Shown here one piece after another: positions 60,203 to 64,000 of a DNA stretch of 64,000 bases. The translations under genes were made by a program, and so were the position numbers. The notes below the pieces were generated by a model, which was given only the letters and a program-made list of their open reading frames with translations, ran no database searches and was not told where the DNA came from. The stretch spans positions 2,170,001 to 2,234,000 of the forward strand of contig NZ_CP116615.1 of the NCBI RefSeq assembly GCF_024832785.1, given 5' to 3'. The first letter of the stretch is position 1. Every line of letters begins with the position of its first letter. Origin of the DNA: Fontisphaera persica (GTDB taxonomy: Bacteria; Verrucomicrobiota; Verrucomicrobiia; Limisphaerales; Fontisphaeraceae).

Positions 60203-61774
60203 TCATGGCTGGCTGCTCTCGCGCTGGCGATGGCTGTCCTGGCACAAGAAACGGTTGACGGCATTCAAATAAGCCCGCGCGCTGGCCTCGATGATGTCCG
60301 TGCTGGCGCCTTTGCCGGTAATGACCTTTTTATCGCCAAAGTCCACCTTCACCGTCACCTCGCCCACCGCGTCCTTGCCTTGAGAAACGGCCCGCAGGTT
60401 GTAATCCATCAAAGTGCCGCCGGTCTTGGTGATGCGGTCAATGGCCTTCAGGGCGGCGTCCACCGGACCGTCGCCAATGGCGGCATCCTGGAATTGCTCC
60501 ACCTTCCCTTTGGCGCCCGGCTTGCGCAGGCGCACGGTGGCCGTGGGCATGGTGGCATTGCCGGTGGTGACGTGCAGGTATTCCAAGGACCATGTCTCCG
60601 GCACCTCCGCTATATGGCCCTCCACCAGCGCAATCAAATCCTCGTCATAAACAAATTTCTTGCGGTCCCCGATTTCCTTGAAACGCTGGAAAAGGGAGTT
60701 GATGTCGGCATCGCTCATCTTGAAGCCCAGGTGCTTCAACCGCGCAGAAACCGCAGCCCGCCCGCTGTGCTTGGTCAGCGGCAACTCGGTCTGGCCCCAG
60801 CCCACCTCCATGGGGTCCATGATTTCATAGGTTTCACGCTTCTTGAGGATGCCGTCCTGATGAATCCCCGCCGAATGAGCAAACGCATTTTCCCCCACAA
60901 TCGCCTTGTTGCGCTGCACCATGAGGCCGCTCATGCGGGCCACCAGGCGGGACGTCTTAACAATCTCGCGCGTGTTCACCCCCACCGTATAACCCGCAAA
61001 GAAGTCGGCGCGCGTCTTGAGCGCCATGACAATTTCCTCCAGCGAGGCATTGCCGGCGCGCTCGCCAATGCCGTTGATGGTGCACTCCACCTGCCGCGCC
61101 CCGGCGCGAATGGCCGCCAGCGAATTGGCCACCGCCAGCCCCAAATCGTTGTGGCAATGCACGCTGATGATGGCCTGGCCGGATTGAAACTCCGGCACCG
61201 CCGCATGCAACTGGGCAATCAACGCCGCAAATTGGTCCGGCACCGCCCAGCCGACGGTATCCGGAATGTTCACCGTGGTGGCGCCGGCTTTGACCACCGC
61301 CTTGCACACCTCAATCAAAAATTCCGGCTCCGTGCGCGAAGCGTCCTCCGGCGAAAACTCCACGTTTTCCACATAACCCCGCGCGCGCGTGACCCCCTCC
61401 ACTGCCAGGCGGAGAATCTCATCTTGGGCCTTGCCCAGCTTGAATTCACGGTGGATTTTGCTCGTGGCCAGAAAGACATGAATGCGGGCGCGCTTGCCGG
61501 CCGGTTTGAGCGCTGCGCCGGCCGCGTCAATGTCCTTGGGCGTGCAACGAGCGAGGCCGGCTATCATGGGGCCTTTGATTTCTTTGGCTATCGCGTTGAC
61601 AGCGGCAAAATCCCCCTCGCTGATCACCGGAAAGCCGGCTTCGATGACATCCACTTTCAACCGCGCCAATTGGCGGGCCACCTCCAGTTTCTGGCGCAAA
61701 TTCATGGAGGCGCCGGGGCACTGCTCGCCATCGCGGAGCGTGGTATCGAAGATGAGAATGCGTTGGTTTTTCAT
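60203..61774 (-). CDS. leuA: 2-isopropylmalate synthase
   Basis: First committed step of leucine synthesis: 2-oxoisovalerate plus acetyl-CoA, in the cytosol. The 523 residues from ATG 61774 ([10 protein letters not shown]) include the HMGL-like barrel with [35 protein letters not shown] and the [18 protein letters not shown] segment, [10 protein letters not shown], and the C-terminal LeuA regulatory domain ([18 protein letters not shown]), so feedback by leucine is likely. Length and order match bacterial LeuA rather than citramalate synthase. The upstream leader contains a Leu-rich peptide and an attenuator (61826-61952), giving transcriptional control by leucyl-tRNA. No other leu gene follows in the window. 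Confidence 0.94.
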
Positions 61775-61825: not shown

Positions 61826-61857
61826 AAAAACCCCACCGCCAGTGTGGCAGCGGGGTT
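61826..61857 (-). terminator. Leucine attenuator terminator upstream of leuA
   Basis: On the minus strand AACCCCGCTGCCA pairs with TGGCGGTGGGGTT (13 pairs, two of them G-U) over a 3-base loop, followed by a T-run. It lies 52 bases before the leuA start. Its 5' arm (CGCTGCCACAC) is the exact complement of GTGTGGCAGCG in the leader peptide frame, so an alternative antiterminator can form. Confidence 0.85.
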
Positions 61858-61877
61858 CAGATTGCTGATTTGTTGAC

Positions 61878-61952
61878 CTAAAACCCGCCTGCCACGCTGC
61901 CACACAACAGCAGCAGCGCGTTTGCCAGTCGCAGGTTCAGGTTTCTGCTCAT
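61878..61952 (-). CDS. leuL: Leucine leader peptide of leuA
   Basis: A 24-codon frame (MSRNLNLRLANALLLLCGSV...) with seven Leu codons, four consecutive (CTG CTG CTG TTG), ending 20 bases before the terminator stem. The GTGTGGCAGCG antiterminator arm starts within a few bases after the Leu run. The layout is that of classical leu/ilv attenuation: ribosome stalling at Leu codons when leucyl-tRNA is scarce should allow antiterminator pairing and leuA expression. The gene name is used by analogy with enterobacterial leuL; the sequence itself is not homologous as far as I can see. Confidence 0.82.
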   Translation of the reverse strand: MSRNLNLRLANALLLLCGSVAGGF

Positions 61953-62114
61953 GGACTAATCCATACGCCCAAAACCCCTGCGCGTCAAACAGTTTTTCTG
62001 GTAACCGACCGGGCCGGCGCAGTGTCAAAATAGGAGCGGATTGAACTGGCCATTTGTACCCATTGGTGGCATATCCAATCCAGAACATACGCTGCGGTTA
62101 AAACAAATATCATC

Positions 62115-64000
62115 ATGAAAACGCTTCACTGGTTGATTGTGGCTGCCGGGCTGGCGGTGGGGAGCCTCCAAGCGGCTAACGTGCCCCCCGCAGAAAAGTT
62201 GCTGCCAGAGAACACTCTGGCCGTGCTTACTGCCCCTGATTACAAAGCGGCCGCCACTTGGTACGACAGCACACCTGGCGGAAAATTCATGGCGGATCCC
62301 GCCATGAAACCATTTCTGGACAAGTTCAAGAGCAAGTTCAGAAAGGACGTGTTGGATCCCCTGGAAAAAGAGCTGGGCATCAAATTCGCCGATTACGAAG
62401 GTCTGGCCCAAGGTCAGGTCAGTTTGGCGATCACCGCCGCCGGCTGGCAGGGTTCTTCCGACAAACTGCCGGCCTTTCTGGTGCTCATGGATACGGGCAG
62501 CAAGAGCGACCAGTTAAAACGCAACCTGGCCGATCTTCGCAAAAAATGGAGCGATGCCGGCAAACCCCTTAAAGAAGAAAAACTGGGAGACGCCGAATTC
62601 ACCACTTACACGCTTATGACCGACGATTTGCGCACCACCTTTGAGCGCATCTTCCCTGACCCCAACGCCGGTTGGGAATCCATCACCCCAGCCCGCCCTG
62701 GCGCTCCGCCCCGGCGGCAGGCCACACGCCCCGAAAACCAGCCCATTCACCTGACGGTGGGCCAGTCCGACACGTTGCTGATTATCGGCACTTCGGTGAG
62801 TGAAATTCGCAAAGTGCTGGACCTGCAAGCAGGCAAGGGTGGCAGCGCGCTGGCGAGTGTCCCCGCCTTTCAAGCCGATTATCAACGGCTCTTCCGCGAC
62901 GCCAAATACTTCGGCTGGGTGAACGTCAAGCTGATCGTGGACTTGGCCATGAAAGGTGTGGACCAAGCCCCCGCCGGCGGTAACAATCCCATGGCCATGA
63001 ATCCCATGCAGGTCGTCAATGCTCTGGGCTTCAACGGCGCAGAATCCGCAGCCATGACCGTGCACGGGGACAAACAAGGCGCCACTGTTGAGTTCTTCTT
63101 GGGGGTGCCGGAGGCCGGCCGCAAGGGACTCTTCAAACTCATGGCCCCCATGGCTGGCGACACCGCCCCGCCGCCGTTTGTGCCGCGCGATGCCGTGAAG
63201 TACACGCGCATCCGCTACAGTTTCAGCGAGGCGTGGAACACCATTGAACAAACGTTGAACGACATCAACCCGGGGCTGTTGGGCGCGCTGGCCTTCTTTG
63301 AAAGCGCCCTGAAAAAACAAAATCCCGACTTCACCCTCCGCAAAGGACTCATTGATTTGTTGGGGGACGACATCATCACCTACGAATTTAATCCCACCGG
63401 CCAGAATCTCGAGGCTCTGGCCAACGCGCCCGGGCTGGTGTTGATAGGTTCTCCCGCCCCGGACAAGCTGGTGGAAACGGTGAAGGGGTTGTTCGAAAAC
63501 TTCGCCCAGATGCGCGGGCCTCGCGGGGGCCGCCGCGACGCCGAGCCGCCCCAACTCAAGACCCGCAAATTGGAGGGGGTCACCATCTACACCTTCCCCC
63601 CCACCCCGCAGATGAACTTCCAGGGCCAACGCATTGGCGAGCGCAGCCTGAGCCTCTGCGCCAGCGGCAAATACATCGCGCTCTCTTATGATGAAAACCT
63701 GCTGGCGCAGTTTCTGCGCACCGCCAAGGCCACCCGTCCCCTGGCAACCGTGCCCGGGCTGGCGGAAGCGGCGCAAAAGGCCGGCGGCTTCAATACCGGC
63801 ATGTTTCACTATGAAGACCAGGCCGAAACCATGCGGGTTCTGTTCAACATCCTCCGCAAGGACGGCCCGCGCATCGGCGAGCTGCTGGCGATGACCCCGC
63901 TAGGCGGGCGCCTCGGATTGGCCGACGATAGCAAGGCGTTTCAGGAATGGTTTGATTTCACCCTATTGCCGCCGTTTGAAAAAGTGAGCAAGTACCTGGG
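62115..64000 (+). CDS. Exported protein of unknown function, cut by right window edge
   Basis: The frame starts at ATG 62115 (MKTLHWLIVAAGLAVGSLQA, a signal peptide with cleavage near AANV) and remains open to the last base, at least 628 codons. The mature protein alternates helical stretches (FLDKFKSKFRKDVLDPLEKE) and beta segments (LPAFLVLMDTGS, ESAAMTVHGDKQGATVEFFLG). Phrases such as LLPENTLAVLTAPD and LIDLLGDDIITYEF resemble exported DUF3352-like proteins, an assignment I hold only loosely. A Met-containing, Gly/Pro-rich insert sits about residues 285-300. It is divergent from leuA with about 160 bases between. Function unknown. Confidence 0.75.
   Translation, partial: MKTLHWLIVAAGLAVGSLQAANVPPAEKLLPENTLAVLTAPDYKAAATWYDSTPGGKFMADPAMKPFLDKFKSKFRKDVLDPLEKELGIKFADYEGLAQGQVSLAITAAGWQGSSDKLPAFLVLMDTGSKSDQLKRNLADLRKKWSDAGKPLKEEKLGDAEFTTYTLMTDDLRTTFERIFPDPNAGWESITPARPGAPPRRQATRPENQPIHLTVGQSDTLLIIGTSVSEIRKVLDLQAGKGGSALASVPAFQADYQRLFRDAKYFGWVNVKLIVDLAMKGVDQAPAGGNNPMAMNPMQVVNALGFNGAESAAMTVHGDKQGATVEFFLGVPEAGRKGLFKLMAPMAGDTAPPPFVPRDAVKYTRIRYSFSEAWNTIEQTLNDINPGLLGALAFFESALKKQNPDFTLRKGLIDLLGDDIITYEFNPTGQNLEALANAPGLVLIGSPAPDKLVETVKGLFENFAQMRGPRGGRRDAEPPQLKTRKLEGVTIYTFPPTPQMNFQGQRIGERSLSLCASGKYIALSYDENLLAQFLRTAKATRPLATVPGLAEAAQKAGGFNTGMFHYEDQAETMRVLFNILRKDGPRIGELLAMTPLGGRLGLADDSKAFQEWFDFTLLPPFEKVSKYL

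Follow-up and report, generated by a model that had tools for sequence, protein, structure and literature searches.

A leucine-rich leader frame and a terminator precede leuA

In the stretch of Fontisphaera persica DNA analysed here (the window; 64,000 nucleotides of a genome that consists of a single 4.73-Mb contig), the leucine biosynthesis gene leuA is preceded by a short reading frame and a hairpin. This raises the question of whether leuA is controlled by a leucine-sensing attenuator. A first-pass annotation had reported a 24-codon leader frame with four consecutive leucine codons and a U-tailed terminator shortly 5′ of leuA. Both are present (Table 1), and the distance from the terminator to the leuA ATG (61774) is 53 nt rather than the 52 given there. 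The successive leucine codons are CTG CTG CTG TTG, with three further leucines earlier in the frame. The leader stop codon lies 19 nt from the terminator hairpin, a distance of 14–22 nt in nearly all the leaders of relatives. When folded, the 145-nt leader reached −67.3 kcal/mol (z = −4.5) and none of 200 shuffles was equally good. The LeuA protein scored 697 bits against TIGR00973 (cut-off 599), as a bacterial-type 2-isopropylmalate synthase. The next gene on the same strand after leuA encodes an ABC1-type kinase; the divergent neighbour of leuA, a long frame at 62115–63998 (+), had no Pfam match.

Table 1. Elements of the leuA leader region, in window coordinates
Feature	Position	Strand	Basis or remark
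−35 box TTGACG of leader promoter	61983..61988	−	TTGAC position kept across leuA upstreams
−10 box TATGGA	61960..61965	−	17-nt spacer; ends 7 nt before start codon
Leader peptide frame, MSRNLNLRLANALLLLCGSVAGGF-stop	61878..61952	−	24 codons, 7 Leu; in-frame Leu enrichment among 93 leaders
Region 1, Leu codons, 5′ arm of 1:2 (anti-antiterminator) hairpin	61908..61917	−	Covariation; host-leader folding
Region 2	61878..61901	−	3′ arm of 1:2 (61901–61892) overlaps antiterminator 5′ arm (61895–61878)
Region 3, antiterminator 3′ arm and also terminator 5′ arm	61844..61860	−	2:3 covariation
3:4 intrinsic terminator hairpin, then TTGTTTTG	61828..61858	−	3:4 covariation
leuA, 2-isopropylmalate synthase, regulated gene	60203..61774	−	TIGR00973

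The leader is found throughout the order of the host

Upstream regions were scanned for the combination of a −35-like promoter box, a reading frame holding five or more leucines, and a terminator. Of 111 distinct Verrucomicrobiota sequences upstream of leuA, 92 carried this combination. It turned up once in 279 dinucleotide shuffles, and once among 39 control sequences taken from in front of trpE and hisG in the host's order. Since positives are so rare in the shuffles and controls, the arrangement at leuA is not due to chance. The leucine fraction of 93 leaders was 0.307 in frame and 0.073 and 0.020 in the other two frames. The leucine codons used were mixed (CTG 322, CTT 114, TTG 70, CTA 68, CTC 32 and TTA 14).

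A covariance model of the leader (R1) was then used with a match threshold of E ≤ 1e-6, the E-values of such a home-made model being rough. The R1 element was found in 226 of the 293 genomes of the order, in 128 of the 154 of good quality, and in 106 of 118 genera. Outside the order, 21 of 388 genomes sampled from the phylum matched at E ≤ 0.001, most of these matches being plain terminators. The many weak R1 matches across the phylum were therefore rejected as attenuators; likewise, weak matches elsewhere in the host genome (E of 5e-4 and worse) were ordinary terminators or coding sequence. A few other families of the phylum have Leu-rich leaders 5′ of leuA that are unrelated to the R1 element, and families f64 and f65 of the same class, as sampled, showed no Leu-rich leader before leuA. 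On these sequence matches, the R1 element is order-wide and leuA leaders are patchy for the phylum. The check that the first-pass annotation had proposed, a search among relatives for a conserved leucine frame and covarying stems, thus came out in its favour, the stems being those of the 69-leader alignment described below.

Several individual loci are worth recording. In one genus (g67 of family f24; L014, L016–L018 and L023), the leuA isoform of the window occurs without an attenuator that its relatives have, which is probably a loss. A metagenome-assembled genome titled Akkermansia muciniphila (L011, CAMAVD010000005.1) carries the order's leuA and attenuator, with a 78% identical LeuA; the record name is probably wrong. 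In family f89 of the phylum (L333, L335 and L336), leuA is preceded by terminators and by unrelated, very Leu-rich leaders such as MIRSGLLRRLLLLLLLEG, perhaps of independent origin. Leaders MRIKNVFRSLPVLGLLAELLLRCPPGASAGT and MNSNNVTRNIPVLGLLSELLLRCPPGASAGT lie upstream of leuA in Candidatus Binatia and in bacterium HR30 (L045 and L046). They have TTGACA 41 nt upstream and a strong terminator; these are likely leucine attenuators outside the phylum.

Three covarying helices compete for shared regions

To assess the helices we used an alignment of 69 leaders, together with controls in which the same helix arms were slid by 1–3 columns. The 1:2 helix had two-sided changes in 6 of 7 pairs, with 83.2% of cells paired compared with 18–61% in the slid controls. 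For the 2:3 antiterminator helix, two-sided changes were seen in 7 of 12 pairs and 87% of cells were paired (33–57% when slid), and for the 3:4 terminator helix these values were 9 of 13 pairs and 95%. Compensatory changes in all three helices exceeded both shuffles and slid controls. Shuffles can be exceeded by related sequences that have no structure; the slid controls are fairer because they keep relatedness. The 1:2 arms occur in the alignment as CGCTGC/GCAGCG, CTCTGC/GCAGAG, TGTTGC/GCAACA, TGTCGC/GCGACA and GACTGC/GCAGTC. The 1:2 helix lies in coding sequence with both arms and the 2:3 helix with one, so coding constraint can explain their conservation but not these matched changes. Comparative sequence analysis shows that the leader frame and the three competing helices exist, that they are conserved and that they keep a fixed position in front of leuA.

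The antiterminator and the terminator are mutually exclusive, since region 3 is common to both, and both covary. Run on its own, RNAalifold recovered the terminator plus two pairs within region 2 and missed the 1:2 and 2:3 helices, as expected for mutually exclusive helices. In the host, the terminator has a predicted stability of −24.1 kcal/mol and a U-rich tail. The conserved antiterminator, GUGGCAGGCGGGUUUUAG : CUGAACCCCGCUGCCAC (61895–61878 with 61860–61844), is built from the last leader codons. It is not the exact 11-nt pairing between leader and terminator that the first-pass annotation had highlighted. That complement does exist (GTGTGGCAGCG, 61905–61895, with CGCTGCCACAC, 61852–61842), but it is not the antiterminator supported by covariation; on its leader side it shares bases with the 3′ arm of 1:2, and its pairing strength in the host is −21.2 kcal/mol, compared with −25.5 kcal/mol for the conserved antiterminator.

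Promoter spacing suggests a leaderless transcript

In 93 leuA upstreams, TTGAC was located mostly 35–39 nt from the leader start (range 35–41). This spacing is in part a product of selection, because the search required a −35-like box 33–42 nt upstream; nearly all cases were nevertheless TTGAC, though eight −35 variants were allowed. For the related leaders of ilvB described below, TTGAC was 34–42 nt before the start in 29 of 30 cases, the search having allowed 33–51 nt. The commonest spacer between the −35 and −10 boxes was 17 nt, and the −10 box was mostly 6–8 nt from the start codon. The position of TTGAC and the 17-nt spacer place the predicted transcription start at or near the leader ATG. 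Shine–Dalgarno-like tetramers were found 5′ of the leader start in only 3 of 93 leaders. A generic promoter scan gave no site at the leader, because it demands a T at the sixth −10 position. The arrangement suggests that the leader mRNA is leaderless, with a predicted 5′ end that coincides, or almost coincides, with the A of the ATG.

Ribosome position would select the helix that forms

The placement of codons and helices was explored by masked folding of the 69 leaders and the host leader, where the segment covered by a ribosome is masked and pairs are counted before region 4 exists. The mean expected number of 2:3 pairs in the 69 leaders was 9.7 with the ribosome on the leucine codons, 5.2 with no ribosome and 0.07 with the ribosome on the stop codon, this last value following partly from the masking of region 2 itself. 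In the host leader, the conserved antiterminator formed before region 4 with the A site at Leu 14, 15 or 16; with the ribosome at Leu 13, the winner was another fold, in which the 11-mer region takes part. The placement thus fits attenuation: in masked folding, region 2 is released by a stalled ribosome and blocked by one that has reached the stop codon. For the finished RNA at equilibrium, the terminator won in most sequences with or without stalling, so the switch must be kinetic and be chosen during transcription, as in known attenuators.

From this arrangement we infer the transcription start, the stalling of the ribosome and the direction of the response. Transcription would begin on the leader start codon or in its immediate vicinity. 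With ample Leu-tRNA, the ribosome would reach the stop codon and cover region 2, the 3:4 terminator would form and leuA would be off. When leucine is scarce, the ribosome would stall on the leucine codons, covering region 1 and freeing region 2. Region 2 would then pair with region 3 while region 4 is still untranscribed, and RNA polymerase would continue into leuA. If the leader is not translated, the 1:2 hairpin would sequester region 2, making termination the default.

The same predicted attenuator precedes two leuA isoforms

Of the order's 293 genomes, only 113 have the leuA type of the window, and 97 of these also have the attenuator. A further 129 genomes have the attenuator without this leuA type. 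Where the window's isoform did not follow the attenuator, 25 loci were readable and every one had the other leuA isoform next; two of these loci belong to genomes holding both. This other isoform is yeast/actinobacterial-like (best families PRK03739 and TIGR00970) and about 30% identical. Each isoform has an attenuator of its own in two genomes (G123 and G064). In family f22, the same upstream gene (89–94% identical), which we take from its sequence to be an aspartate kinase, precedes the attenuator of isoform I (L193, L194) and of isoform II (L197, L219). The simplest reading of the same attenuator and the same neighbour with two isoforms is gene exchange behind a kept attenuator. From these loci, leuA seems to have been swapped behind the attenuator, in one direction or the other.

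Predicted sister attenuators precede ilvB and a DAHP synthase gene

The host has two more attenuators of this kind. One, MSMLGQVHLLVVAVIGGAVCACRS with a terminator, lies before ilvB (G000:C1:1662501–1662632 (−); L255:2702–2833 (−)). Its family of leaders is Val-rich with an end like DAVGxCRA, and was found in 255 of the 293 genomes of the order and in 149 of the 154 good ones. The other, VNVSSFRFNGAWYGWYGHPQACV with a terminator, lies before a DAHP synthase gene (L317:1136–1266 (+), about G000:C1:1847657–1847787). Leaders of this type are rich in Phe, Tyr and Trp (an example from relatives is VNVSRQQAIEFAGRFFFFYFWPAGVRLRRR), and aromatic-rich leaders with a similar terminator were present at 11 of 17 DAHP synthase loci scanned. 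No attenuator was found at the second DAHP synthase gene of the host (L330), and scans upstream of trpE (in the window) and hisG gave no consistent leader.

Elsewhere in the class or phylum, there is a Phe/Tyr-rich leader before a DAHP synthase gene (MSFINNSFFYYFFSCFAYFYYRKRGGAVVAVLK; L177:1308–1473), a Leu/Ile-rich leader before leuA (L181:1501–1636) and a Val-rich leader before ilvB (MKLTLVVLLVKVVVVVVTSNEFARA; L192:1501–1635). A terminator was present with each.

We give somewhat better than even odds to a combined evolutionary reading: that the leaderless attenuators (Leu at leuA, Val at ilvB, Phe/Tyr/Trp at DAHP synthase) form an ancient, vertically inherited family and are the order's main means of sensing these amino acids, and that at leuA the attenuator has stayed in place as a fixed unit while a distant isoform replaced the enzyme gene behind it.

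Attenuation compared with other explanations

We put the probability that the leuA leader is a leucine-sensing, ribosome-mediated transcription attenuator at roughly 90%, judged from sequence; the g67 lineage, with this leuA but no such element, counts against it. A strong intrinsic terminator could instead merely stop transcription from upstream, with the short frame a chance by-product. The upstream gene is divergent in the host genome, however, so no transcript of a neighbouring gene arrives to be stopped, and the frame, its leucine codons and two more helices are conserved alongside the terminator. This explanation was already disfavoured and we regard it as very improbable. Slightly more room is left for control of the leuA start by translation coupling or RNA folding, or for Rho-dependent termination, in place of the proposed transcriptional switch. 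Such variants have been discussed for actinobacterial leuA, with leader peptides that have no clear terminator (PMC1262725, PMC8079986). In the present case a U-tailed terminator occurs throughout the alignment, with 95% of cells paired and 53 nt from the leuA start codon, and we think such control improbable.

That the leader is structured and conserved would also suit a riboswitch or T-box, with the RNA directly sensing leucine or another metabolite and the frame being secondary. At the gathering score, the host leader and 12 related loci matched no Rfam family, T-box and RF00512 Leu_leader included, and in the host leader nothing meaningful appeared at E up to 10, again including RF00512. 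A riboswitch has no need of leucine enrichment in codon phase, and the amino acid of the sister leaders changes with the target gene, which makes direct sensing by the RNA hardly credible.

Comparison with known attenuators

Leader-peptide systems have been described as known in Proteobacteria and Actinobacteria, with Firmicutes added by Naville and Gautheret (PMC2965389). The first-pass annotation, which called ribosome-stalling attenuation best documented in the first two groups, had omitted Firmicutes, where leader peptides are described too (PMC2965389, PMC5794164). Sun and colleagues suggested that the four Rfam attenuator families originated in gamma-proteobacteria (PMC3766115). In the open-licence literature we found no paper linking Verrucomicrobia with amino-acid attenuation. 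The mechanism is textbook; the RNA family, its lineage, its scale and its evolutionary behaviour look new as far as could be checked. An order-wide Verrucomicrobiota family with no Rfam match argues that attenuators arose repeatedly or are older than thought. The leaders also form a large natural sequence set for attenuation from leaderless mRNAs, and leuA offers a probable case of an enzyme gene being exchanged under retained control.

The attenuator of the enterobacterial leu operon (RF00512) likewise has a Leu-rich leader peptide, competing helices and an intrinsic terminator, and controls leuA. The present element differs in having no Rfam match, a predicted leaderless start and an ABC1-type kinase gene next instead of leuBCD. 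The trpL leader peptide of Sinorhizobium meliloti is leaderless. The trpL attenuator of this species resembles the leuA leader in its ribosome-mediated mechanism, but responds to tryptophan and belongs to the Alphaproteobacteria (PMC7298713). Outside Proteobacteria, the Staphylococcus aureus ilv attenuator peptide is likewise Leu-rich and serves branched-chain amino acid genes; it is found in Firmicutes and controls the branched-chain synthesis operon beside CodY, rather than leuA (PMC5794164). Streptomyces has leaderless leader peptides too (PMC8079986); its LeuL1/LeuL2 and the actinobacterial leuA leaders (PMC8079986, PMC1262725) share the leaderless Leu-rich frame, with LeuL1 directly before leuA. 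However, LeuL1 has no typical intrinsic terminator, and the LEU pseudoknot is found in the leuA region of Actinobacteria (PMC1262725), whereas in the Verrucomicrobiota leaders the terminator/antiterminator pair is clear and conserved.
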